Assembly: GCA_903847935.1 (NCBI GenBank) | Contig: CAINEX010000119.1 | Location: 1 to 34,937, forward strand | DNA: 34,937 nucleotides | Reading direction: 5' to 3' | From: an uncultured Spartobacteria bacterium | GTDB taxonomy: Bacteria; Verrucomicrobiota; Verrucomicrobiia; Chthoniobacterales; UBA6821 | Shown: positions 8,836 to 22,888 of the stretch, one piece after another | How the letters are laid out: each line of letters begins with the position of its first letter | Position numbering within the stretch: the stretch's first letter is position 1 | The notes under the pieces: model-generated | The model's input: the letters and a program-made list of their open reading frames with translations, nothing else | Told to the model about the DNA's origin: nothing | Databases searched by the model: none | Program-made: the position numbers and the translations under genes

Positions 8836-9572
8836 GCCGGAAGAACCTCGGACAGGACTCCCGCAAGCTCAAGCGCTGGCCACTGGCCAGGGACTTGGGG
8901 CTTGCCTAGCCAACCATAGCAGAGGGGGGCACCGAAACCGCTCAGCACAATCCGGGAGAAGCGACCCGCGGCTCCCATTCCCATGGCAGTCACAGGGATC
9001 GGTGTCTTGGCTGTCTGCAATCCGATGAGGCGCTCAAGATCGGCAGGGTTTCTTAGGAAAGTCGCCACCTTGAAAAGGTCAGCACCAAGATCGGAGGCCC
9101 TCAAGGCCAGTTCCTTCATTGTAGCAAGCGAAGGCGTTGAGGAAAAATTATGATGGGAGAGGATCACCGTCCGACCATGCTGGTGGGCGGTAGCGATCAA
9201 GGGAGCCAGAGATTGAGCAGATCGGAGCTCCACATCGATGGCGGAGGCCCATGAAAGGGACTCCTCCAAGAGGCTGCGTCGCTGTGCAAGGGTGAGATTA
9301 CCAACTCCCCCTTCACCCGGATGCCGGGCCGTGGCAATCATTGGGAGGTCAACCGGTAACTGAGAGGAAAAAGCAGATATAAGATGATTAGGGAGTGAGT
9401 CGAGTCGGGCCTCCAATAAGTCAACAAACTTTACCTTCTTTGCATTTGATTTGGAGAGAAGACGAAGGCCGGTTTGCTCGTGGAGGGTTCCCACCACAAG
9501 CGTCCGACCCCTCTCCAACATGGGATGGAGTGACAGCTCTTGTTTCTTGAATTTCTTTCTGATACTTAACAT
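8832..9572 (-). CDS. aroD: Type I 3-dehydroquinate dehydratase
   Basis: The enzyme dehydrates 3-dehydroquinate to 3-dehydroshikimate in the shikimate pathway through a Schiff base. The visible catalytic residues are EARLD (54-58), the general-base histidine in ILSHHNF (138-143), and the Schiff-base lysine in LFKVAT (K168). The C-terminal substrate loop reads AMGMGAAGRFSR, and the end has CYGWLGKPQVPGQW. The 246-residue length is usual. The start could be ATG 9572 or ATG 9521; the shorter form removes a basic N-terminal tail. It is the first gene of the minus-strand set and diverges from the sugar transferase gene with only about 23 bases between them. Confidence 0.93.
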   Translation of the reverse strand: MLSIRKKFKKQELSLHPMLERGRTLVVGTLHEQTGLRLLSKSNAKKVKFVDLLEARLDSLPNHLISAFSSQLPVDLPMIATARHPGEGGVGNLTLAQRRSLLEESLSWASAIDVELRSAQSLAPLIATAHQHGRTVILSHHNFSSTPSLATMKELALRASDLGADLFKVATFLRNPADLERLIGLQTAKTPIPVTAMGMGAAGRFSRIVLSGFGAPLCYGWLGKPQVPGQWPALELAGVLSEVLPA

Positions 9573-9595
9573 TTCTCCCTTATTTAATCCAGACA

Positions 9596-10978
9596 GTGAA
9601 TCACAAACAAGAAATCTCCAAGGATTTGCCGATGCTCGCCGACGGCCTCCTGATGGGACTCTGTCTCTGGCTCAGTTATCTCCTCAGGGTTTCCCTGAAT
9701 GCATGGCCCAGCTTCTTCAGCGAGATCCCTCCCTTCTCGACCTTTCTCTGGATGGTTGTCGTGGTTATTCCACTGACACCATTGATTCTGGATCTGAACG
9801 GGTACTACGAAAACCCGGTTATCCGCACCTTCGAGAGCATATTACCCCGCATGCTGAAAGGGGGAATCTGGCTGGCCTTGATCATCACCCTGAGTTCAAT
9901 CCTGAGCAGGCTTGAAGTTCCCAGTCGCACGGTACTGATTTTCTTTTTCATTCTGGCGCCGGCGGCACTAATTACCAGACTGACGCTCACTAAAAAAATA
10001 CTGCTGAGAAAATATGAACGTGGAGAATTGGGTGAGGAGAGTGCCATCATCGGAACGTCGGAGGATGCGGATGTTTTTCTCGGAAAGTTGAACCCAACCG
10101 AACTTCTCTCCCTGCGAATCAATCATCGTTTTAACATCGATGAGATGGATGCCGAAACTATCCGCCGAAACCTCCGGGAGCACCCTGTAGGAAGGGTTAT
10201 CTTTGTTTCCGCGGAATCTCCTAAAAATGAATCTCTTCCGATGGAATCTGAGTCCGAAGGTATGGAGGTATGGATTGTGACCAATCAAATCAACGGCATC
10301 GTGGGACCCCCCCAAGTCTCCACGGCGGGAACAAGTCGTATCCTGGTCTTTCACAGAACTAGAAGCGAGGTCTGGTACAACTATATAAAAAGGGTAACCG
10401 ATATTATCGGGGCCTTAGTTGGACTGCTCCTGCTTTCACCCCTCCTTATTGTGATCGCCCTGACCGTGAAGTTCACCTCCCCGGGACCGGTTATTTTCAA
10501 ACAGGTACGCAGCGGCAAGAGAGGCAAGCGCTTCACGATCTTCAAATTTCGCTCGATGGTCGATAACGCCTCAGAATTACATGAAAATCTCCATCATCAG
10601 AACGAAATGGAGGGGCCAGTCTTCAAAATCACAAAGGATCCACGGGTAACTCCGGTCGGAGCATTTCTCAGGAGAACGAGCCTTGATGAGTTCCCCCAGT
10701 TGTGGAACGTCCTACGCGGTGAGATGAGCCTTGTCGGCCCGCGTCCACTACCAGATTACGAGACGAAAAAAATCGAGGTCAGCGCTCATCGCAGACGACT
10801 CAGCGTGAAACCCGGACTGACCTGCCTCTGGCAGATCAAGGGCAGAAGCTCCATCACAAGCTTTGAGGAATGGGTTAATCTTGACCTTGAATACATTGAT
10901 CATGCCTCGTTAGCGCTCGATCTCTGGATTATTTTGAGAACAATTCCGGTGGTACTCTTCCGTTGCGGCGCCCATTAG
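9596..10978 (+). CDS. Polyprenyl-phosphate sugar-1-phosphate transferase (exopolysaccharide initiation)
   Basis: The protein (460 residues, GTG start) transfers a sugar phosphate to undecaprenyl phosphate as the first step of a surface glycan. Four N-terminal helices lie near residues 14-30, 42-62, 85-103 and 108-125. A cytosolic nucleotide-binding-like domain (about 140-245) follows, then a membrane helix near 268-287 ([20 protein letters not shown]). The catalytic PF02397-type domain shows KFRSMV, the segment [16 protein letters not shown], the [13 protein letters not shown] motif, MSLVGPRP, and [14 protein letters not shown]. No glycan cluster adjoins it, so the transferred sugar and final polymer are unknown. 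It diverges from aroD and is followed by the pilus-like locus after 114 bases. Confidence 0.92.
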
Positions 10979-11049
10979 CAACAGCTTCTGATAACTCCGC
11001 TTTGTTTAAAATTGAGGCCCACACATTGAACCATCTTCTTACTGGATAA

Positions 11050-11091
11050 GGGGGAGATTTTCTTATTTGATAATCGACTCTTCACTCCCCC
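11050..11091. repeat. 7-bp inverted repeat GGGGGAG/CTCCCCC just upstream of the pilus-like locus
   Basis: GGGGGAG at 11050-11056 is mirrored by CTCCCCC at 11085-11091, with a 28-base AT-richer spacer containing GATAAT. The right arm ends one base before the ATG of the Amuc_1102-like gene. It could be a leader hairpin that hides the translation start, an operator, or chance. No U-run follows, so it is not a terminator. Confidence 0.4.
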
Positions 11092-11092
11092 G

Positions 11093-11731
11093 ATGTCACC
11101 GATCAGACAATATCTTCCGAGCTTCCTTGGGACAACTCTGCACGTGGGGATTTTTATTGCAGCCACTTTTTTATCCGCGAGTGCCCAACTGAACACGGAG
11201 TTTCAGATCAGGAAAATATCCCCGTCAATCATTACGACTCCTGCGCTGAACTACGTCACGGGACCAGTGAAGCCCTCGCGCTCCAAGAACTGGATGGAGT
11301 TGGAGGTTGCTTTCGAGTGGCATCCCGTCAACGCAGCCGAAAAATTCGCGGACGACGTGATTGTGAACTACTATGTCCTGATGGCTGGGAAATCCGTGGA
11401 TTCTCCCAACGGGACTTTACTGACAGGACAAGTGACCCTTATTTCCGTACCTGCGAAAACAAGCACCCCAAGGAGGACCGTCATGTACCTGAGTCACCGG
11501 ACCATGCAGCATTTTTCGGGGGGCAAGGAGCATTACAGCACTCAATCCGTCCTGAATAATGTCGGCGTAACCATCTCCTACCATGGCAAGGTCGTTGCAG
11601 AGAAGAGCCTGAACGGTACGGGGGAGTGGTGGAAAAATTTACACCCTGTCAGCGGTTATCTCGTTTCGAAAGAGATGAGTCCCTTCGCCCCCCTCTTTTC
11701 AGATTACTACGAGGATGTCAAAAAACCTTGA
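11093..11731 (+). CDS. Amuc_1102-family pilus-like exported protein
   Basis: This 212-residue protein starts with a basic-hydrophobic signal sequence (about residues 1-31, ending near LSASAQ). Then follows a mainly beta sequence with LEVAFEWHPV, FADDVIVNYYVLM, TLLTGQVTLISVPA and VMYLSHRTMQHF, consistent with a single beta-sandwich domain. I identify it with the Akkermansia Amuc_1102 family by size, by this pattern, and by position immediately before the PilM-like gene. In Akkermansia the corresponding protein is reported with a pilus-like operon, and its exact role is not known. It is 54 bases upstream of the PilM-like gene and is probably the first gene of the operon. Confidence 0.8.
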   Translation: MSPIRQYLPSFLGTTLHVGIFIAATFLSASAQLNTEFQIRKISPSIITTPALNYVTGPVKPSRSKNWMELEVAFEWHPVNAAEKFADDVIVNYYVLMAGKSVDSPNGTLLTGQVTLISVPAKTSTPRRTVMYLSHRTMQHFSGGKEHYSTQSVLNNVGVTISYHGKVVAEKSLNGTGEWWKNLHPVSGYLVSKEMSPFAPLFSDYYEDVKKP

Positions 11732-11785: not shown

Positions 11786-13507
11786 ATGGCAAAACCAAAA
11801 AAAATCCTGGTTCTGGATCTCGGCATGCAGTCTCTGCGCCTTGCCGAGTTCTCCATCGATAAGAATGGTGAACTGACCCTCGCGCGTGGTGCCAGCAGGG
11901 ATTTCCTGCTGGATCCCACCATGGAGCAGTCTCGACCCGAGCAAATCCGTCTTTCCGTGCTGGAGATCTTGAAAAACTGGGGTCTCCGAAGCGCGGATGT
12001 CTGCTGCATCCTTCCCGCTCACTCGGTCTTCACCAGGGTCGTGGCTTTAGATATCCCGGGAGGGCCTGGAAGCTCGAATGACCGGATTAAAGAAGTCATC
12101 CGCTTTGAGGCCCAGCAGAACATACCATTCCCACTGGACGAGGTCGCCTGGGATTACGTCACCATGGGAGAGACGGCATCGGGTTCGGTCAATGTTGTCT
12201 TTGTAGCCGTGAAGTCAGACCTGCTTGAATCCATCTGTCAGTCGCTCCGCTCGGCAGGCCTGATCGTTGTCTCCGTGACCGCGGCTCCACTGGCTCTCTA
12301 CGATGCCTTCCGAAACACCTATCCGGAGTGCGCCGACTCAACCACGCTCCTGCTTGACATGGGTTCACGCACGACGAATCTCGTGATCGCCGGTCCCGGG
12401 ACATTCTTTGCACGCAGCATCCCTTCAGGGGGACTTGCATTGACAGCCGCGATCGCAAAGGAACTGAATGCCGAACTGGAGGCAGCCGAGCAGATCAAGG
12501 TCACCCGAGGATCCGTCGCATCCGGCGTCACGGGTGAACAATCTTCCGATCAACTTGATGCCAACCTTGGTCTCATCGCACGACGAGTCCTGCTGAAGAC
12601 TCAGTCCGATATCAGCCGCTCCTTGAGTTTTTATCTCTCGACCCACGGCGGGCAGGGCCCCTCCCAGATACTCCTGACTGGCGGGATGGCCGGCCTTCCG
12701 AATCTCAGGGAGTTCCTTGCCGAGAGGTTCCAGCGCGAAGTTCATCTCTTCGACCCCTTGCGGACGCTTTCGGCCAAGGATCAGTCTTCAACGATTACCT
12801 CCTTCATTGCCTCTCATTCCAACAATCTCGGCGAACTCATCGGCGGGGCGCTCACCCTTTCCGGTGAAAGTGCTTATACAAAAGTCGAACTCCTCCCTCC
12901 CTCTCTGATGAAAAGGCGGGAGTTCTTCAAGAGGCTCCCATTCCTTTCCAGTGCGGCTGCCCTTTTCTTGGGAACCTTAGCGATCTGGTATGGTTACCTC
13001 TCCTACGAAGAGAGTGAGATCAGGGGAGTGACATCCGGACTCAAGACCATCGTTGATGGTGAGACACGCCTTGCATCGGGGATCAAGCAGGTTATGGAGA
13101 AAACAGATGCGGTCCAGAAAACAGGTTCGGACCTCCTCTCTCTCATCGAACTCCGCTCCGCCTACCCGAATTTACTCGCGGATCTGAGTGCCAGAATACC
13201 CCAGCGCTATCTGTGGATGACGGATATTCAACCCGTGGGGGATACAGCTCCAAAAAACTCCGCCAAAAATTCGGAGCCCATGGTGGTGAAGGCACTGCTG
13301 GTCAAGGGACTCTATCTTGACAATCCCCGACAGGCGGCCGTCATTGATGATTTCGTGAACTCGCTTCAAACCTCGGATCTCTTTTCCGTGAATGAGAACG
13401 AGAAATCAAAAATCATCACCCAAAGGGGAAGCCCCAGCGGTGATCTCTGGGCCTATCCATTTGCTCTGAGAATACCACTCCGTAATCCCCTCACTTTCCT
13501 GCCATGA
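11786..13507 (+). CDS. Amuc_1101-family PilM/PilN-like fusion protein
   Basis: This 573-residue protein has an N-terminal PilM-type actin-like domain (about 1-370). Phosphate loop 1 is LVLDLGMQSLRLAEF (8-22), phosphate loop 2 is LLLDMGSRTTNLVI (near 188-201), and an adenosine loop ILLTGGMAGLPNL lies near 296-308. One transmembrane helix (about 384-406) follows, then a coiled region and a small alpha/beta domain resembling PilN (about 430-570). In type IV pilus systems PilM is cytosolic and recruits separate PilN; here the two are joined, so the cytosolic and periplasmic parts are one polypeptide. The end overlaps the next gene by ATGA (13504-13507). Confidence 0.88.
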   Translation: MAKPKKILVLDLGMQSLRLAEFSIDKNGELTLARGASRDFLLDPTMEQSRPEQIRLSVLEILKNWGLRSADVCCILPAHSVFTRVVALDIPGGPGSSNDRIKEVIRFEAQQNIPFPLDEVAWDYVTMGETASGSVNVVFVAVKSDLLESICQSLRSAGLIVVSVTAAPLALYDAFRNTYPECADSTTLLLDMGSRTTNLVIAGPGTFFARSIPSGGLALTAAIAKELNAELEAAEQIKVTRGSVASGVTGEQSSDQLDANLGLIARRVLLKTQSDISRSLSFYLSTHGGQGPSQILLTGGMAGLPNLREFLAERFQREVHLFDPLRTLSAKDQSSTITSFIASHSNNLGELIGGALTLSGESAYTKVELLPPSLMKRREFFKRLPFLSSAAALFLGTLAIWYGYLSYEESEIRGVTSGLKTIVDGETRLASGIKQVMEKTDAVQKTGSDLLSLIELRSAYPNLLADLSARIPQRYLWMTDIQPVGDTAPKNSAKNSEPMVVKALLVKGLYLDNPRQAAVIDDFVNSLQTSDLFSVNENEKSKIITQRGSPSGDLWAYPFALRIPLRNPLTFLP

Positions 13508-14601
13508 CACGGATGAATTTCACCGCCTGGTTCGCCGAAAACAAACTCATTGCCACCCTCTCGGCCCTCTTCCTGACCGCTGTGGCCGTCATGGGATATC
13601 TTACCTGGAGCGCCTGGGATGCTTATTCCAACGCATTGCAGGAGCAGGAGACGATGAACTCCAAACTCGTCGCGCTTGCCAAACCCGACCATCCATTCCC
13701 CAATGAGGCCAACCTGAAAAAGCTGAATGAAGTCCTCACCAACGATCAGACCGACTTAAAAAAACTTCAGCAGGAACTTCTGAAGTACAGGATACCCACA
13801 TTCGCAGAGCTCGAAAAAGCAAAGCCCCAGGATCGGCCTCAACTTTTCCAAGATGCGCTTAGGACCGCTGTCACGAAGGCCAAGACTACGTCCGCTGCCT
13901 CGGCATGCACTCTGCCGGCAACCTTTTATTTGGGACTGGGGGAGTACGAAAACAGTGTCCCCAGAAGTGATGACGTGCTGATCTTGGCGAAACGACTGAC
14001 AGTCCTTGATTGGGTGGCGGGAGCCCTGTTGAATCAGAACGGAGTACTGGTGGACAACTTCTCCAGGCTTGAGACCGAGTCCACGGCAAAAACGGACTCA
14101 TCCGCAGCGCCTTTGGCAGGGACCGGATCGAAAAAGGGAGCCTCTCCCGCTCCGACCTCAGGAAACACGCAGCGCACCAAAGCCGTCACAGCCACTGCCA
14201 CTCCGGCTCCAAATGCGCCAGCGGCTCCCTACTCGTCAGTTGGCGGCATCCAGATCACCTTCCGTTGCTCTCAGGAGGCCTTTAGGAATTTTGTGAATGC
14301 CATCACGTCCTCACCTTATTTCCTGGTTATTGAAAACCTCCAGGTCCAGAACACCAACAAGGAGGCTCCGAAGCGGAATGAGACCCAACAGCAGCCGCCT
14401 AAGTCCCCATCGGGAAAGCCTCTAACGGCAAGCCGCCTTCACTTTGTGGTCGGAGGTCCGGATGAATTGTTAAACATTGCCATGAAGGTTCGGATCCTTG
14501 AGTTCCCCGAACCGACTCCCTCCAAAGCCGATAAACTTCCCCCGGGAGTTCTGTCGCCGGCAACCTCGGGGATCAACCAAGATAGGGGGACAGCAAAGTA
14601 A
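13504..14601 (+). CDS. Amuc_1100-family pilus-like periplasmic protein
   Basis: This 365-residue protein has one N-terminal membrane helix (about 16-36), then a coiled-coil with many Lys/Gln/Leu residues (about 60-100), then PilO-like alpha/beta domains. One is around residues 140-195 (FYLGLGEYENSVP, VLDWVAGALL), the other around 245-345 (GGIQITFRCSQEAFRNFVNAI). A low-complexity Ala/Pro/Thr/Lys linker (about 195-245) separates them. I identify it with the Amuc_1100 family by position and layout. Amuc_1100 of Akkermansia is about 317 residues and is reported to act on host TLR2; this homologue is longer because of its linkers. It overlaps the PilM-like gene by four bases and precedes the Amuc_1099-like gene by seven. 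Confidence 0.85.
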   Translation: MTRMNFTAWFAENKLIATLSALFLTAVAVMGYLTWSAWDAYSNALQEQETMNSKLVALAKPDHPFPNEANLKKLNEVLTNDQTDLKKLQQELLKYRIPTFAELEKAKPQDRPQLFQDALRTAVTKAKTTSAASACTLPATFYLGLGEYENSVPRSDDVLILAKRLTVLDWVAGALLNQNGVLVDNFSRLETESTAKTDSSAAPLAGTGSKKGASPAPTSGNTQRTKAVTATATPAPNAPAAPYSSVGGIQITFRCSQEAFRNFVNAITSSPYFLVIENLQVQNTNKEAPKRNETQQQPPKSPSGKPLTASRLHFVVGGPDELLNIAMKVRILEFPEPTPSKADKLPPGVLSPATSGINQDRGTAK

Positions 14602-14608
14602 AGCGCCG

Positions 14609-15631
14609 ATGAAAACTTTCCTTTCACTCTACTACGACCGACTGCTACTGGCGCTTGCGGGCTTCACCACGCTGCTCTCCGCAATAGCCGTGATTTATCT
14701 CTGCCTGGCAGGATCCCCCTCATCCGCCGCAAACTCCACCGCTAATGCTAGCGACAAACTTCTTACTCCTCCGTCAAAGGGAGCCGTTGCTTTGGGTCGT
14801 CTTGTAAAAACTCAAGTCTGGAATCCACGGGACGACGCCTCATCCCCCCTTGTCTCACGGCCATACATCCTGAAAGAGGGGAAACTGTTTGATCCTCTCG
14901 ACGGCACGGAACCTCTCCACCCTCCCGTTCCTAACAAGTGGCTTGTTGATCACCAATTGGACTATGCTGATGTCGATATCCTGAATCGGGATCCCAAGGG
15001 GAAGGGTTTCACCATCCTGGAAGAGTTCACTGCGGGAACAGATCCGAACAATCCCCATCAGTTCCCCCCACTCTATACAAAACTGAGTTATACCGATGCC
15101 GATCTCATCAAGAACAACTATAGTTTTGATTTCCTGGGAGTCGATGACTCGGAGGGGGCGAAAAAGTATCAACTCCGGCCGTTGAAACCCCTAGCAAACC
15201 CATCAAGAAAAGAGTCCAAAGCAGACACCACCAGCAGATTTGTGGCACTGGGGGAAACAATTCCCGGGGCCCCGAGTCTTAAGGTTGTTGATTATGTCGA
15301 AAAGAAAAAGGTGATCAATGACACGGAGTATGATTTCAGCGAATTGATTCTGGAGAACACACTCAACGGCAAGCGAACCAACTTGATCCGAAAGAATATC
15401 TCCAAAGAGTACCAACCCACCGCCATTACAACGGTTGAGAGTGTTACCCTTCATTATCAACTCACCGGCGCACCTGACCAGGCTTATCCCCTGAAAAGGG
15501 GGGATGTGATTCCCTTGGCGAGCCTTGACAAGAGTTTTTCGGAAACTTACAAACTAAAGGACTTTTCCGAGGAAGGGATCCTTCTGGAAAAAGAGGGGAA
15601 CACTTACGTTGTCAAAGCCCCTGCGCAGTAG
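14609..15631 (+). CDS. Amuc_1099-family pilus-like protein with a TSP3-like segment
   Basis: From ATG 14609 the protein has 340 residues. I prefer this start because it begins with a clean basic/hydrophobic membrane anchor (about 9-35), while the ATG at 14498 reads inside the upstream gene. Residues about 118-149 read DYADVDILNRDPKGKG and then LEEFTAGTDPNNP, closely resembling the D-rich thrombospondin-type-3/EF-hand-like calcium loops of exported proteins. Two further beta-rich segments (about 210-335) follow, containing FSELILENTLNGKRTNLIRK and YPLKRGDVIPLASL. It lies between the Amuc_1100-like gene and the first secretin and probably links inner-membrane and secretin components. Confidence 0.8.
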   Translation: MKTFLSLYYDRLLLALAGFTTLLSAIAVIYLCLAGSPSSAANSTANASDKLLTPPSKGAVALGRLVKTQVWNPRDDASSPLVSRPYILKEGKLFDPLDGTEPLHPPVPNKWLVDHQLDYADVDILNRDPKGKGFTILEEFTAGTDPNNPHQFPPLYTKLSYTDADLIKNNYSFDFLGVDDSEGAKKYQLRPLKPLANPSRKESKADTTSRFVALGETIPGAPSLKVVDYVEKKKVINDTEYDFSELILENTLNGKRTNLIRKNISKEYQPTAITTVESVTLHYQLTGAPDQAYPLKRGDVIPLASLDKSFSETYKLKDFSEEGILLEKEGNTYVVKAPAQ

Positions 15632-15774: not shown

Positions 15775-18276
15775 ATGAGTATATTTGCCTTTTCACGGAA
15801 CCGATTACCCCTTGCCCTACTTTCTGCTATCTTAATCCTGAACGCCACCTGGGCCAATGCCCAGCAGTCGGGTGTCGTGGGTCAGACCGAGAGGGAAATC
15901 CGCATCATTCAGGAACGAAGCAACTGGGCGCGCACCCAGATTTCCAAGGCCCAATCAGCACTTGTCGAGAACGATTACGAGTCCGCTTACGCCCTCTCCA
16001 AGAGTGCCGTGGATGCGTTGCCCTCCGGCGGGGATGCCCTCAAGGGCCTGCGGCCGCTCGCCATTGAAACCTTTTCAAAATCCGCACTCATGTTGGCCGA
16101 GCAGAGAATCTCGGAGGGTCGGTTCGAGGATGCTCAATTGGTCGTCTCATCGGTCACGGGTAGCCCGTACGAGTCGCAGTATGCCCCGCTTCTCACCCTG
16201 GAAAAGAAGCTGCACGACCCCAAAGAATTTAACAAGACAGTGACCCCGGCCTTCGTGGCCAAGGTGGAGGAGGTCAAACAACTCCTCAGCGAAGCCAAGG
16301 GATGCTATGATCGTGGAAACTTTGATAAGGCCTTCAGAACCTATGAGAAGGTTCTCAATCTCGATCCTGAGAACACCTCTGCCCGCCTTGGCATGGAGGA
16401 GGTTAATAAACAGCGAACCACCTATGCCGAGACCGCGTATAATGAACAGCGAAGCAAGATGGTTGAGGATGTGGCGCAGGCATGGGAGCTACCAGTGGCC
16501 AAATTCGATACCGGAGCCTCCACGATCATCGAGCAGAATCCCATCGACATCATGGGCACCAGTTCCATCACCCGTAAACTGCAGGAGATCAGAATTGAGA
16601 AACTTGTTCTCCAGGACGACAGCGTCAGGGAGGCCATCGCAAAACTTCAGAAGAAATCAAGGGAGCTTGACACGGGTGAAAGTGATCCCACCAAGAAGGG
16701 CGTTAATATCGTTCTAAAACTCGACCCAGCAAAGGAGTCGACAGACGGAGGGACAAGAATTTCCCTGGCTCTCAACGACCTTCCGTTGGGAGAGGCCCTG
16801 AAATATGTCGCCTCTGCAGCAAATCTTAAAGTCAAGGTGGAGCCTTATGCCGCAGCACTGGTACCCCTCTCAGAACCTTCCGAGGTAATGCTTTCAAAGG
16901 AATACAAGGTTCCCCCGGGCTTTATTTCTTCAGCCCCTAGCTCCGCTGCAAAACCAGGAGATCCGAATGCCGGAAAAGTTGTCGGACAGACCGGAGCCAA
17001 GGATTTCTTACAAGCCCAAGGGGTGACCTTTCCCGCGGGAGCCAGCGCCACGTACCTGGCCTCCAGCAGCAGGCTTCTGGTCAAGAATACACAATCAAAT
17101 CTCGATCTGATCGATTCGCTGGTGGAAGTCGCGCAAGCTACTCCTCCTAGCCAAGTCGAAATTGAGGCCCGATTCCTCGAGATCACCCAGAATAATCTCC
17201 AAGAACTTGGCTTCGACTGGCTCATGGGATCCTTCCAACTTCCAGGCGGCACGGGTGCTTACGGCGGGGGGGGGACTGTCGGCAATCAGGCCAATCAACC
17301 CGTCTCAAGCTTTCCGTTTGTCAATCCTGCCACCGGATTGCCTACGGGGGCGATGAATGCATCAGGAGGTAATGTAACGGCTGGTAATATTACTGCCGGC
17401 AATCGTACGGGTGCCGCAGGCATCTCTGCAAACGCACTGGATGCCCTACTCTTCGGTAGCCCGGCAGGACCAGCTCCCGGTGTGCTGGCCTTGGCGGGAG
17501 TTTTCACGAATCCCCAGTTTCAAGTCGTTCTCAGGGCACTCAACCAGCAGAAGGGGACCGATCTTGTTTCGGCTCCCAAGGTCACTGTCACCAGCGGTCG
17601 CAAGGCGACCATCAATATTAACAGGAAGTTTCCCTACCCGAAAGATTACGCCCCTCCCCAGATTCCCCAAACCCAATATGGAGGTGGTGGCGTTGCTACT
17701 CCGGCAACCCCCACTTCGTTTGAGACAAGAAAGGTGGGTGTCCAACTGGAAGTTGAGCCAACGATCGGTCCAGATGGATACACCATTGAACTGAGCCTCT
17801 CACCTCAGATCGTTGAGTTTGAAGGAATGATCAACTATGGCACTCCTATTAATGCTGTGGCACCCGTTAAGACGATTACCGGTGTCAGCTTGGGGCAGAC
17901 GGCAAAGGTCGTGCTCTCCCAAAACCCGATCCTACAACCCGTTTTCAGCGTTCGCCAAGTCGATACACAAGTCACCGTTCAGGATGGACAGACCGTGGTG
18001 CTGGGCGGACTCATGCGAGAAGATGTTCAGAAGGTCCAGGACAAGACGCCGATTGTGGGAGACCTCCCCTTGGTTGGTTCGCTCTTCCGGAGTTCAGACA
18101 ACCAACGGGTCAAAAGAAACCTCCTCATTTTTGTGACCGCGGGCCTTCTTGATCCAGCCGGCCAACCCCTCATCAAGCAGGATGATGAATCATCCCTTCT
18201 GGTTCCTGACGCCACAGCAATCAGATCCGAGGCTGTTCCGGGTGATGCCTCTACCGCTACTCGAAAATCACGATGA
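15775..18276 (+). CDS. Amuc_1098-family secretin, copy 1
   Basis: From ATG 15775 the protein has 833 residues and a signal peptide ending near WANA-QQ. The start at 15640 would add a non-signal N-terminus. A TPR-like helical region follows (about 160-215, with YDRGNFDKAFRTYEKVLNLD), then secretin N-type domains (about 275-480), with VEIEARFLEITQNNLQELGFDW near 461-482. A Gly/Asn/Ala-rich insert lies near 490-560. The secretin barrel has LVSAPKVTVTSGRKA (near 594-608), VTVQDGQTVVLGGL (near 733-746) and the VGDLPLVGSLFR closing motif. It should form the outer-membrane channel of the pilus-like system. It overlaps copy 2 by four bases. Confidence 0.93.
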   Translation: MSIFAFSRNRLPLALLSAILILNATWANAQQSGVVGQTEREIRIIQERSNWARTQISKAQSALVENDYESAYALSKSAVDALPSGGDALKGLRPLAIETFSKSALMLAEQRISEGRFEDAQLVVSSVTGSPYESQYAPLLTLEKKLHDPKEFNKTVTPAFVAKVEEVKQLLSEAKGCYDRGNFDKAFRTYEKVLNLDPENTSARLGMEEVNKQRTTYAETAYNEQRSKMVEDVAQAWELPVAKFDTGASTIIEQNPIDIMGTSSITRKLQEIRIEKLVLQDDSVREAIAKLQKKSRELDTGESDPTKKGVNIVLKLDPAKESTDGGTRISLALNDLPLGEALKYVASAANLKVKVEPYAAALVPLSEPSEVMLSKEYKVPPGFISSAPSSAAKPGDPNAGKVVGQTGAKDFLQAQGVTFPAGASATYLASSSRLLVKNTQSNLDLIDSLVEVAQATPPSQVEIEARFLEITQNNLQELGFDWLMGSFQLPGGTGAYGGGGTVGNQANQPVSSFPFVNPATGLPTGAMNASGGNVTAGNITAGNRTGAAGISANALDALLFGSPAGPAPGVLALAGVFTNPQFQVVLRALNQQKGTDLVSAPKVTVTSGRKATININRKFPYPKDYAPPQIPQTQYGGGGVATPATPTSFETRKVGVQLEVEPTIGPDGYTIELSLSPQIVEFEGMINYGTPINAVAPVKTITGVSLGQTAKVVLSQNPILQPVFSVRQVDTQVTVQDGQTVVLGGLMREDVQKVQDKTPIVGDLPLVGSLFRSSDNQRVKRNLLIFVTAGLLDPAGQPLIKQDDESSLLVPDATAIRSEAVPGDASTATRKSR

Positions 18277-20888
18277 AAAAGGCTTCCAATCCTTCTGTTT
18301 TATTTTCATCAGCCCTGCCAACCACGTTCAACCTCATGAGAAGGCTTCACATTCTTAGAACAGCCAACATCGGCATGGTTATCATGATCGGAGCCATGGC
18401 TCTGCCTGCATTAAGCGCTCAGAACCTAGCCGACCAGAGCGAGAAGGCGATCGTCAGGAGTCAGGCCGATCTCCAGCAGTCCCAGACACTCATGCGCGAG
18501 GCCTCTAAAAAGCAGCTTCTTGCAAAAAACAACGGTGAATCACTGGAGGAATCGTATCAACTGGCTGAGAAGGCAATCCAACTCGCACCCGCTCCAAGCG
18601 TTGAGACCGGATCATCCCGATCGCTCCTTGCTTCCGATTACACGAGGATCGCACTGGCCTATGCCAGGGAACTGATCAACAACGGACGCTACTCCGATGC
18701 AGAGTCGATTGTAAAAGGGGTGCTCGTTCCCTCCGTGAACCCCTCAAGCAGAGAGGCCGTGCAACTTCTTTCCGACCTAGAGCAACCGGAGGTCATCAAC
18801 AAGACAGTAACTCCGAAGTCCGCTGCTCACCGGGATCAAGTGATCAAGCTACTCCAGGAAGGACAGGGACTGGCCGAGAGTGGACGCAATGCCCTCGCCA
18901 TTGCGAAATACAACGAAGTCCTGATACTTGACCCGTATAACAAGGCCGCCCGTCACGGGATGGAAGCCATTCATAATTCGGAAATCAAATATGACGAAGA
19001 GGCCTACAATGAAACTCGTAGCAGAATGCTCTGGCAGGTCGAAAAGGCCTGGGAACGCCCTATTGCCAAACCGAAACATGGCCGAACAAGCGAAGCCATG
19101 GGACACCTCCAAGAAACCAAGGGAACAGATCAGATCGTTGCCAAGCTTAACTCAATCATCATTCCCAAGATCGATCTGAACGACTCACCCGTGGGCGAAG
19201 CTGTGGAATATCTCAAGCAGAAAGGTCGGGAACAAGACCCCGAGAAAAAGGGTGTGAACATCTTCCTGAAACTTGCATCCACAGCTGATTCCGGTTCGAA
19301 AACCGACTCTAAGACATCCGGAGGAACGTCTGATGCCGCAACCACTGAACCGACGATCAATCTCTCACTCAACCATGTTCCTCTCTATGTCGCGCTCGAT
19401 TATGTGAGCAAGTTGGCAAACATGAAGCTGAAGATTGATCCCTATGCCGTATCGATCGTGCCGCTCTCGGAACCGACAGATCTCCTGATCACCAAGGAGT
19501 ACAAGGTTCCACCAAACTTTATTCCCGCAAAACAATTGGACCCTGCATTAGGCACAACGACCCCCAAGACTAAGGCGGGTAATGACGAGACAAATAACGT
19601 CTCCAGAATCGGCGAGCGCTTTAACGCCCAAGATTATCTTACATCTCAGGGTGTCGATTTCCCGACAGGTGCGAGCGCCAACTATGTCCCCTCCTCGAGT
19701 AAACTGATCATACGTAACACACGCGACAACATTGATCAAATCGATGCCCTCGTCGATGCCTCGATGGAATCGAGCCCTACTCAGGTTGATATCCAGACAA
19801 AGTTCCTGGAAATCAATCAGAACAATCTGCAGGAACTCGGCTTTGACTGGCTCCTTGGTCCCTTCAGTGTCGGGGGAGGCGTCTACGGGAGCGGCGGGGG
19901 AGGAAATGGAAATTCGGCCAATTACCCGTTTGGTAATCCTTATCCCGGCAGTTATCCCATGAGCCAAGTAGGGTCGCTACGTTCCGGAGATTCTGCAATC
20001 ACTGGGAACTCCGTCGACTCGCTTCTGGCTGCTCAAAATGCTGGAAATTTCTCCTCGGGTAATGGGAATTTGGCAGCTCCCGCGCCCGGCATCTTCAGTA
20101 TTGCCGGAGTCTTCTCAGATCCACAATTCCAGATGGTGATCCATGCGCTCAACCAAAAGAAAGGGATTGATCTCATGGCGGCGCCAAAGGTGACCACCAA
20201 GAGCGGCATTAAAGCAACGATCCAGATCGTCAATGAGTTCATCTATCCGACCCAGTACGACCCGCCAACCATCCCCCAAACAACCTCAAATGCGGCAACT
20301 GGATTTAGTGTTCCACCAACGGTCACTCCCTCCTTCCCGCGAAATTTCGTGATGGAGCCACTGGGCGTCATCCTGGATGTCCTACCAACGATCGGGCCCG
20401 ACGGATACACGATCGACATGGCGCTTAATCCGAAGGTGACGGATTTCGACGGTTTCATCAACTATGGCTCACCGATTAACGAAGTTGGCTATCAGATTTC
20501 CGGAGCCCTTGCACTTCCTGTTGCGCAAGCAGTGACGACGAATAACATTAATCAGCCGGTCTTCTCGACCCGTGAGGTCAATACTTTCGTGACCGTCTGG
20601 GATGGACAAACCGTAGCCCTTGGAGGACTCATCAGGGAAGATGTCCAGAAGGTTCAGGACAAGGTTCCCTTCCTGGGCGATGTCCCTTTGGCAGGACGCC
20701 TTTTCCGCTCGGATGTGGATCAGAAGCTCAAGAAGAACCTGGTGATCTTCGTCAAACCGACCATCTTGGATTCACAAGGCCAACCGCGCCGTGGAAACGA
20801 TGAGGAACTCGAGCAGGTTCAGACCTTAGGATTACCCCGAGATCTTCCTCAACCTTCAGATCGCTCAACTGCCGGAAGAACGAAATAA
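18273..20888 (+). CDS. Amuc_1098-family secretin, copy 2 (tandem paralogue)
   Basis: This 871-residue protein is collinear with copy 1. It has a TPR-like region (about 175-255, with VILDPYNKAARHGMEAIH), N-domains, QVDIQTKFLEINQNNLQELG near 504-523, a Gly/Asn/Ser-rich insert, LMAAPKVTTKSGIKA near 633-647, and VTVWDGQTVALGGL near 773-786. The closing motif is LGDVPLAGRLFR. ATG 18273 overlaps the copy 1 stop as ATGA. A second in-frame ATG at 18336 would leave a cleaner signal peptide (MRRLHIL...LPALSA-QN), so either start is possible. Both copies are intact, so neither looks like a decaying duplicate. They could form mixed or separate rings. Confidence 0.92.
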   Translation: MKKASNPSVLFSSALPTTFNLMRRLHILRTANIGMVIMIGAMALPALSAQNLADQSEKAIVRSQADLQQSQTLMREASKKQLLAKNNGESLEESYQLAEKAIQLAPAPSVETGSSRSLLASDYTRIALAYARELINNGRYSDAESIVKGVLVPSVNPSSREAVQLLSDLEQPEVINKTVTPKSAAHRDQVIKLLQEGQGLAESGRNALAIAKYNEVLILDPYNKAARHGMEAIHNSEIKYDEEAYNETRSRMLWQVEKAWERPIAKPKHGRTSEAMGHLQETKGTDQIVAKLNSIIIPKIDLNDSPVGEAVEYLKQKGREQDPEKKGVNIFLKLASTADSGSKTDSKTSGGTSDAATTEPTINLSLNHVPLYVALDYVSKLANMKLKIDPYAVSIVPLSEPTDLLITKEYKVPPNFIPAKQLDPALGTTTPKTKAGNDETNNVSRIGERFNAQDYLTSQGVDFPTGASANYVPSSSKLIIRNTRDNIDQIDALVDASMESSPTQVDIQTKFLEINQNNLQELGFDWLLGPFSVGGGVYGSGGGGNGNSANYPFGNPYPGSYPMSQVGSLRSGDSAITGNSVDSLLAAQNAGNFSSGNGNLAAPAPGIFSIAGVFSDPQFQMVIHALNQKKGIDLMAAPKVTTKSGIKATIQIVNEFIYPTQYDPPTIPQTTSNAATGFSVPPTVTPSFPRNFVMEPLGVILDVLPTIGPDGYTIDMALNPKVTDFDGFINYGSPINEVGYQISGALALPVAQAVTTNNINQPVFSTREVNTFVTVWDGQTVALGGLIREDVQKVQDKVPFLGDVPLAGRLFRSDVDQKLKKNLVIFVKPTILDSQGQPRRGNDEELEQVQTLGLPRDLPQPSDRSTAGRTK

Positions 20889-20948: not shown

Positions 20949-21557
20949 ATGCCTTCAATAGCCATCACAGGAACGATTGGAAGCGGTAAATCAGAATTTC
21001 TGAGCTTGCTGGGGCAGATTCTTGCAAGTTTCACCCCGACTTCCACTTTTTGTGCAGACGATATGAATCGGAAATTACTGGATACCGATCCTAATGTCAG
21101 GGAAGCAATTATTCAAAAGCTGGGAAAGGACACTTATCAAACAGACGGGAAGGCGGATAGGGTTCGTCTCTTTTCGATGATCAGCACGGATCCGCAGGCA
21201 CGCACAACGCTTGAAGAAATCATGCATCCTAGGATTGAGAGCCTCTGGAGACCCGAAGCAGAAAAACATGCTTCCTCCAGATCCACCTTTTTCGTTGCTG
21301 AAATTCCCCTTCTTTTTGAAAAAGGATTGGAATCCTACTTCTCCAAGAGCATTGTGGTGGGGGCTTCAGACTCGATCCGCAAAGTGAGGCTGATGCGCCG
21401 CTCCCTTGCTCCTGAAAAAGCCGAAGTCTGGATGAATCTTCAGGAGCCACAGCAGGGTAAAATCTCAAAATCCGATCACCTGATCTGGAATGACGGTTCC
21501 CTGGAGGCACTGAAAAACCAAACATCTCTTCTTGCATCACATCTCTTGAAACAATGA
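20949..21557 (+). CDS. coaE: Dephospho-CoA kinase
   Basis: The enzyme phosphorylates dephospho-CoA in the last step of coenzyme A synthesis. The 202-residue protein has the P-loop GTIGSGKS (8-15), a FCADDMNRKLL acceptor region in place of the usual DxxxR/H pattern, EEIMHPRIESLW, and the family segment VAEIPLLFEKGLE near 118-130. A later RRSLAPEKAEVWMN lid and an SDHLIWNDGSLEAL tail match the family. Its stop overlaps the ATG of rho by four bases, so the two are co-translated. It follows the secretin pair by 60 bases and may share the upstream transcript. Confidence 0.92.
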   Translation: MPSIAITGTIGSGKSEFLSLLGQILASFTPTSTFCADDMNRKLLDTDPNVREAIIQKLGKDTYQTDGKADRVRLFSMISTDPQARTTLEEIMHPRIESLWRPEAEKHASSRSTFFVAEIPLLFEKGLESYFSKSIVVGASDSIRKVRLMRRSLAPEKAEVWMNLQEPQQGKISKSDHLIWNDGSLEALKNQTSLLASHLLKQ

Positions 21558-22888
21558 CCACCTCTTTCACTGAGAACGAGATAGCCCATCCCGCGGAAGG
21601 TGAAACTCCTACTCCTGCAGCACCTCCCGTACCGGAACCAACGGAATTTTCCAACCTGCAGAGGTTGAACCACGCCGAGTTGCTTGCTCTGGCGACATCC
21701 CGGAATCTTTCCGTTTACCACGATTCTTCACGCAACCATCTTATCCTCGATCTGGTTCGTGACCTACTGAAACGAGGTGGCCTTGTCACGGCGGAGGGAA
21801 TCTTGGAGTTCGCGCCCGATGCACCAATGATCCGTTGGCCGCTCGTCAACTTCAAACCGACTCCGTGTGATCTTACTCTGCCTATCCCTCTACTCCGTCA
21901 ATATGAACTGAGGCCCGGCCTAAGGCTTCGGGGAACGATACGAATGGTTGGAGACCGTCGATTGGGACTCGATACCCTTCTCTCCATCGAGGGAATACCA
22001 GTGGAAGAATGGAAGAGTCCCCCGGAATTCGACAAGTTGACCGCCATGTTCCCGAACAGGAGGATTCACTTGGAGCAACCGGGTAAACATAACCCCACGG
22101 CACGAGCCATCGATCTCATCGCCCCCCTTGGCATGGGGCAGCGTGGACTCATCGTGGCCCCACCCCGCGTAGGAAAGACAATGATGCTCAAAAGTCTTGC
22201 CCTTGCGATACGGGCAAATCACCCCGACATCCATCTCATGCTCCTCCTTGTGGATGAAAGACCTGAAGAGGTCACCGACCTGCGTCGATCTCTGGACTGC
22301 GATATCTTCAGTTCCACCTTCGACGAACCCACCAGCAGGCATGTTCAGGTAGCTGAAATGGTCTCTGAGCGCTCCAAGAGGTTGGTGGAACTTGGGAAGG
22401 ACGTCGTCGTTCTCGTCGATAGTGTTACCCGTCTTTCCAGAGGGTACAACAACGGGATCAAGGGTAAGGGCAGAACAATGAGCGGAGGTGTCGATGCCAC
22501 AGCACTTGCTCGTCCAAAACGCTTCTTCGGATCAGCCCGAAACGTCGAGGAGGGGGGGAGTCTGACCATTTTGGCGACAGCCTTGATCGAGACCCATAGC
22601 CGCATGGATGATTTAATTTTTGAGGAATACAAGGGCACCGGAAATATGGAGATTCATCTGGACCGTTCCATCATGGAACAACGCATCTTCCCCGCCATCC
22701 ACATCACGAAATCAGGTACCCGCCGCGAGGAACTCCTCTATCATCCTGATGAGTACAGTCGGGTGACGCTCCTGCGGAAGCAACTCTCCGAGTTGCCCGC
22801 TGTCGAGGCGATGCAGATCCTGGGACTGAATCTCGAAACGACAAAGACCAATGCGGAGCTCTTGCTTCAGGGACTTAAGGGCCTTTGA
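21554..22888 (+). CDS. rho: Transcription termination factor Rho
   Basis: The hexameric RNA helicase ends transcription of unprotected RNAs. The 444-residue protein has a short acidic/proline-rich N-terminus (about 1-32) and an N-terminal helix bundle with LNHAELLALATSRNL. An RNA-binding OB fold follows at about 75-150 (GILEFAPDAPMIRW, LRPGLRLRGTIR). The ATPase domain has the Walker A APPRVGKT (202-209), LLVDERPEEV (231-240), FDEPTSRHVQVAEMV, VVVLVDSVTRLSRGYN, and GTGNMEIHLDRSI. Length and motifs agree with a full, active Rho. It overlaps coaE by four bases and converges with the rhomboid gene, separated by 57 bases with no clear hairpin terminator. Confidence 0.97.
   Translation: MTTSFTENEIAHPAEGETPTPAAPPVPEPTEFSNLQRLNHAELLALATSRNLSVYHDSSRNHLILDLVRDLLKRGGLVTAEGILEFAPDAPMIRWPLVNFKPTPCDLTLPIPLLRQYELRPGLRLRGTIRMVGDRRLGLDTLLSIEGIPVEEWKSPPEFDKLTAMFPNRRIHLEQPGKHNPTARAIDLIAPLGMGQRGLIVAPPRVGKTMMLKSLALAIRANHPDIHLMLLLVDERPEEVTDLRRSLDCDIFSSTFDEPTSRHVQVAEMVSERSKRLVELGKDVVVLVDSVTRLSRGYNNGIKGKGRTMSGGVDATALARPKRFFGSARNVEEGGSLTILATALIETHSRMDDLIFEEYKGTGNMEIHLDRSIMEQRIFPAIHITKSGTRREELLYHPDEYSRVTLLRKQLSELPAVEAMQILGLNLETTKTNAELLLQGLKGL

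Follow-up and report, generated by a model that had tools for sequence, protein, structure and literature searches.

The locus analyzed here raises the question of why a pilus-type operon should carry two adjacent secretin genes behind one set of inner-membrane genes, and whether the second is a working partner of the first or a redundant copy of it. The window, by which we mean the whole stretch of DNA under analysis (34,937 nucleotides), is a complete 34.9-kb contig from the metagenome-assembled genome of an uncultured freshwater Spartobacteria bacterium (order Chthoniobacterales). When family assignment, phylogeny, and a survey of relatives are placed side by side, it is very probable (about 0.9) that the two genes encode functional paralogues that stem from one old duplication and have one platform in this genome.

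Both genes lie on the forward strand, copy 1 at positions 15775 to 18276 (833 amino acids) and copy 2 at 18273 to 20888 (871 amino acids), and both reading frames are intact. The products score 778.7 and 775.0 bits, respectively, against the NCBIfam family NF042912 (Amuc_1098_fam), each above its curated cut-off of 750 bits, and the Pfam Secretin domain PF00263 is matched at residues 588 to 792 of copy 1 (E = 2.3e-34) and 625 to 832 of copy 2 (E = 7.2e-35). The initial annotation had described two tandem, intact secretins at this place, and the exact coordinates, the open frames, and the matches to NF042912 and Secretin bear this out. The collinearity that it reported extends over 846 alignment columns at 41% identity (E = 0), and the common blocks that it singled out, LEI-QNNLQELGFDW and EDVQKVQDK, are found in both copies. 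The two proteins share one layout, in which a predicted signal peptide is followed by a helical, TPR-like N-terminal part, N domains, and the secretin core, but they differ in the tail, which is SEAVPGDAST in copy 1 and LGLPRDLPQP...K in copy 2.

Scores against other secretin models lie below their cut-offs for both copies, at 123.0 and 109.1 bits for the TIGR02515 PilQ subfamily (cut-off 284) and at 134.7 and 136.0 bits for the TIGR02517 GspD equivalog (cut-off 351). The TPR-like part comprises predicted helices at residues 34 to 238 in copy 1 and 49 to 261 in copy 2, and the Pfam TPR matches in this part of both proteins are under their cut-offs. The models of the single chains reach only medium to low confidence (pLDDT 68.5 for copy 1 and 66.9 for copy 2, pTM 0.30 to 0.33); in a fold-library search, the top matches of both are solved secretins, including Vibrio cholerae PilQ (6w6m), and N-domain-like folds are present in both models. 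The two copies have signal-peptide-like N termini and may lie in the outer membrane. Amuc_1098 (PilQ) of Akkermansia muciniphila has been placed in the outer membrane by immuno-EM, where it is more abundant than any other protein of that membrane (PMC4960237).

The two genes meet in an ATGA at 18273 to 18276 on the forward strand, in which the stop codon of copy 1 overlaps the first of the possible starts of copy 2. The overlap seen in the initial annotation is therefore present in the DNA, but its use is less certain, as copy 2 may instead start at an in-frame ATG at 18336, likewise ahead of a signal-peptide-like stretch, and it is not conserved. Several relatives of the same genus (L033, L034, L094, and L098) lack the ATGA and keep a short spacing; it is consequently the tight spacing, and not the overlap, that is conserved. 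In the relatives, the copies are for the most part -8 to +32 nt apart, and the space between them holds no other gene.

The genes upstream, all on the forward strand, encode an Amuc_1102-family protein (11093 to 11731; 212 amino acids; NF042424, 79.3 bits, cut-off 55), an Amuc_1101-like PilM protein (11786 to 13507; 573 amino acids; PF11104 PilM_2, E = 3e-30; NF045709, 440 bits, below the cut-off of 650), an Amuc_1100-like protein of T2SSM-b/PilO-like type (13504 to 14601; 365 amino acids; NF038287, 141 bits, below the cut-off of 180; PF10741, barely above its cut-off), and an Amuc_1099-family protein (14606 to 15631; NF042425, 128 bits, cut-off 50). By NCBIfam standards, the 1102 and 1099 relatives are thus over their cut-offs, and the 1101 and 1100 relatives are clear matches below theirs. 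With the relatives of Amuc_1102, 1101, 1100, and 1099 upstream in this order and two secretins closing what is apparently one operon, the earlier label of Amuc_1098-type is appropriate. The Amuc_1098-1102 locus of A. muciniphila has the same order, ending in a secretin of the NF042912 family with a TPR-like N-terminal part and a C-terminal secretin domain; unlike the present locus with its two adjacent secretin genes, that operon has one.

Downstream on the forward strand lie a coaE-like dephospho-CoA kinase gene (20949 to 21557) and a rho-like transcription termination factor gene (21554 to 22888), which we take to be such from their translations and general knowledge; homologues of both stand downstream in most relatives. 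Just upstream of the pilus operon, at 9596 to 10978, is an exopolysaccharide-type sugar transferase gene, a homologue of which is found at the same site in many relatives from several families.

Beyond the window, the genome (2.2 Mb) was searched family by family, and the Amuc_1101-like PilM protein, a part of the inner-membrane/cytoplasmic platform, is the sole full Amuc_1101 match found. Because this match is single, one Amuc_1099-1102 set apparently serves both secretins, in an assembly of 140 contigs that is 95% complete. The earlier suggestion of shared inner-membrane parts agrees with the genome, in which one such set is found. A separate GspD-type secretin gene adjoins pseudopilin-type genes on another contig (L159), so the type II secretion system has a GspD of its own.

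The survey of where the pair occurs took in 38 relatives, roughly 200 genomes from the order, and roughly 290 from the phylum, with follow-up on odd cases; the relatives retrieved with the protein are Spartobacteria/Chthoniobacterales metagenome-assembled genomes, mostly from freshwater and including UBA6821. Six families of the Chthoniobacterales (f1, f2, f7, f8, f10, and f13) carry the adjacent pair, and families f3, f4, f6, f9, f11, and f12 carry one operon secretin. A culturable relative, the Spartobacteria isolate LR76 (L147), is among the bearers of the pair. Among the surveyed genomes of pair-bearing families, no single intact copy was seen on uninterrupted sequence. In three genomes that are close to complete but gave a single counted match (G007, G018, and G022), the second copy is truncated or absent where the contig apparently breaks, and in genomes without any match (G088, G092, G103, and two of 0.9 Mb) both copies are absent.

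A few cases stand apart. The 0.9-Mb genomes G028 and G038 of family f8 are without both secretins, and their larger relative G046 retains the pair. Genome G077 of family f7 has two secretin pairs on separate contigs (C24 and C75), either because it has another such locus or because the assembly is mixed. In family f6, which otherwise has one family member, two genomes of genus g30 (G071 and G076) and one of g32 (G138) have two full-length, unlinked members on different contigs. Apparent pairs in family f9 were rejected, as the two matches there are halves of a single gene, divided by an insertion or a contig boundary. In genus g2, which belongs to the same family as the present genome (L039, L040, and L041), copy 1 and copy 2 alike are fast evolving and no longer have their C-terminal tails, their residue make-up is unusual, and the DNA at the junctions is AT rich.

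Phylogeny places this distribution in an evolutionary context. In a tree of 81 proteins in which the pair is represented by 22 loci, all 22 copy 1 proteins form one clade (SH-aLRT 99) and all 22 copy 2 proteins another (SH-aLRT 100); the two clades are sisters, with joint SH-aLRT support of 95 to 96, and adjoin 13 proteins from the order that are encoded as single copies. The simplest account would be one old tandem duplication in the ancestor of the six families. Purifying selection acts on both copies, with dN/dS against a sister species of about 0.03 for copy 1 and about 0.05 for copy 2, values of which only the low level is meaningful because dS is near saturation. The initial annotation had proposed to look in a tree for a second copy that is recent, decaying, and present in this genome only. 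The tree gives the contrary result, and the claim of a conserved, nondecaying pair stands: it recurs in dozens of genomes independent of one another, its orthology is consistent throughout, both frames are open, and dN/dS is far below 1. These same observations, together with the lack in the window of any exact DNA match of at least 14 nt between the copies, make a recent redundant duplicate decaying in this genome alone, or an artefact of assembly, a reading that tree, survey, and dN/dS practically exclude. The lack of such a match also led us to reject gene conversion as the process that keeps the common blocks alike.

Comparison of the copies with each other gives an impression of what has been kept and what has diverged. 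All 52 columns in which conservation reaches at least 95% in each copy hold the identical residue in copy 1 and copy 2, and it follows that neither copy has lost the invariant positions of the family. Consistent differences between the copies at a 70% threshold are confined to 13 of 787 columns and are scattered; the sharpest are A554 in copy 1 against S580 in copy 2 and, in the TPR-like part, L107 against Y130 and R111 against L134, with the single-copy proteins mostly matching copy 1 at the latter two. The tails differ in a more concerted way: copy 2 ends in lysine at 34 of 35 loci and has DAEG before the tail at 34 of 35, whereas copy 1 has a terminal lysine at 3 of 35, DPAG at 33 of 35, and a PGD/PDD tail at 27 of 35, and single-copy proteins combine both states (terminal lysine in 14 of 16, DPAG in 13 of 16), all of these being counts that are phylogenetically non-independent, for motifs chosen after inspection of the tails, with genus g2 excluded and a few broken or frameshifted copy 1 rows among them. 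The pattern is as if ancestral features had been divided between the copies.

That the single-copy proteins join the terminal lysine of copy 2 to the DPAG of copy 1 also agrees with an earlier date, on which the copies would be older than the split from the single-copy families and each of these families would have lost one. In an AU test with 33 rows, neither a grouping of copy 1 with the single-copy proteins (p = 0.58) nor one of copy 2 with them (p = 0.45) is rejected; the clade of copy 1 with copy 2 nevertheless has the best likelihood in that test, by about 10 and 18 log units over the alternatives, and has the SH-aLRT support of 95 to 96 in the larger tree, and the earlier date requires more losses than a later duplication. 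We consider the earlier date unlikely; it would alter when the copies arose and not what they do, and hence does not compete with the readings of mechanism.

The small number of consistent differences could be taken to mean that the copies are near-equivalent secretins kept for a high demand for protein, with little division of labor, and the abundance of Amuc_1098 in A. muciniphila noted above (PMC4960237) would be in keeping with such a dosage role. The identity of 41%, the separation into two clades without mixing, the lack of a shared exact DNA match of at least 14 nt, and the strictly paralogue-specific tails all argue against interchangeable copies, and we regard a pure dosage role as rather improbable.

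A different line of evidence comes from evolutionary rates. With rho removed, pairwise distances of copy 1 and copy 2 give a partial r of 0.93 (0.88 without genus g2), those of copy 1 and PilM give 0.91 (0.75 without g2), at or below the value for the two copies, and coaE gives 0.03 (0.30 without g2), below that value, in distances that are not mutually independent. Such covariation fits membership of both copies in one machine, and adjacency, the lack of single-copy loss, and correlated rates only point to mutual dependence. It could be speculated, and is the reading that we tentatively prefer at somewhat less than even odds, that the copies form a mutually dependent pair in a mixed ring over one platform. 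Copy 1 and copy 2 would be made from one transcript, exported via their signal peptides, and inserted in the outer membrane as secretin subunits, both above the same PilM/1100/1099/1102 platform, where the conserved core that they have in common would let them co-assemble into a single mixed ring. The differing TPR-like N-terminal parts and C-terminal tails could then contact different partners, be it peptidoglycan, an assembly factor, or the platform. One apparent transcript and one platform together suggest that both copies are produced together. Against a mixed ring, an identity of 41% would suffice for each copy to build a homomeric ring of its own, and paralogues under common constraints may covary in rate without contact. 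All solved secretin rings are, to our knowledge, homo-oligomers of 12 to 15 copies. V. cholerae PilQ, with its C14 symmetry, is an example (PMC7545093).

It is conceivable instead that the copies are two specialized homomeric channels that both dock on the same inner-membrane platform, such as a pilus ring and a ring for secretion or DNA uptake, or rings for different sites or times, and we regard this as a close contender. The sequences agree about equally well with the hetero-oligomeric channel, the two-state channel, and the two machines that the initial annotation had suggested. The identity of 41%, the conserved copy-specific tails, and the residues by which the copies differ in the TPR-like part (L/Y at 107/130 and R/L at 111/134) would agree with specialization, and unlinked second family members are known in Akkermansiaceae and f6. 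The genome encodes three PilB-like and two PilT-like ATPases and two PilC-type proteins, with which more than one filament mode would be possible. However, genomes with one secretin have tandem PilB/PilT pairs as well, as does an Akkermansia-like genome, and a link between the secretin pair and these tandem motors was rejected on this ground. Loss of just one copy is not seen in any pair-bearing genome, and as adjacency in one apparent operon is always kept, a transcriptional switch from one copy to the other is hardly feasible. PilB-like (MshEN-T2SSE) and PilT-like ATPase genes stand in adjacent pairs at L156:7145-10496 and at L151/L152 (G000:C140 and G000:C16).

Should the mixed ring that we tentatively prefer exist, it could be the first naturally hetero-oligomeric secretin, an outer-membrane pilus channel for which two paralogous subunits are both obligate and have stayed fixed since one duplication in the ancestor of the six families, a claim that we hold possible but somewhat doubtful. 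In the open-access literature, to which the search was confined, no paper was found that describes a pilus operon with two secretins.

Known systems offer partial parallels. The type IVa PilQ of V. cholerae and Pseudomonas aeruginosa resembles the present proteins in its secretin core, in the fold match to 6w6m, and in an operon with PilM, but the proteins described here lie below the TIGR02515 cut-off, have a TPR-like N-terminal part, and are encoded by two genes. In P. aeruginosa, a single inner-membrane machinery probably works with two paralogous secretins, XcpQ and the orphan XqhA/XphA; they belong, however, to type II secretion and not to a pilus-type locus, and the extra gene is not in tandem within the same operon. 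Among other Verrucomicrobiota, two loci (L144 and L089/G271) have two adjacent Amuc_1098-like secretins after 1102-1101-(1100)-1099, as here, but each pair groups with itself in the tree, which suggests separate duplications. The L144 genes (8881 to 11253, and from 11477 onward) both have frames that look broken or incomplete, and those of L089 (at 9210 and 11868) are on long branches, so their independent origin is unsure.

Akkermansia itself is less simple than had been supposed. In genome G306 (2,664,102 bases), which we take to be the A. muciniphila type strain, the operon secretin has 907 amino acids, presumably the published operon secretin (PilQ), whose length is the same, and an unlinked family member of 841 amino acids lies over the NF042912 cut-off (L160:5147-7672, on G306:C1 at about 1.979 Mb), between amylase-like and folD/fabI-like (folate/lipid) genes. 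The other sampled Akkermansia-like genomes have two family members as well, and no paper on the unlinked one was found in the open-access literature. The statement that Akkermansia has one such gene is thus right for the operon and wrong for the sampled Akkermansia-like genomes as a whole, and it follows that two secretins per inner-membrane set are not unique to the present lineage.

Additional unlinked secretin copies occur in Akkermansiaceae and in family f18. Extra Amuc_1098-type secretins have thus arisen repeatedly in Verrucomicrobiota, and what is special here is a single old tandem pair that has been kept together in six families. A lineage with two diverged subunits in the same operon lends itself to asking whether a mixed secretin ring is possible or whether one platform may serve two pores.
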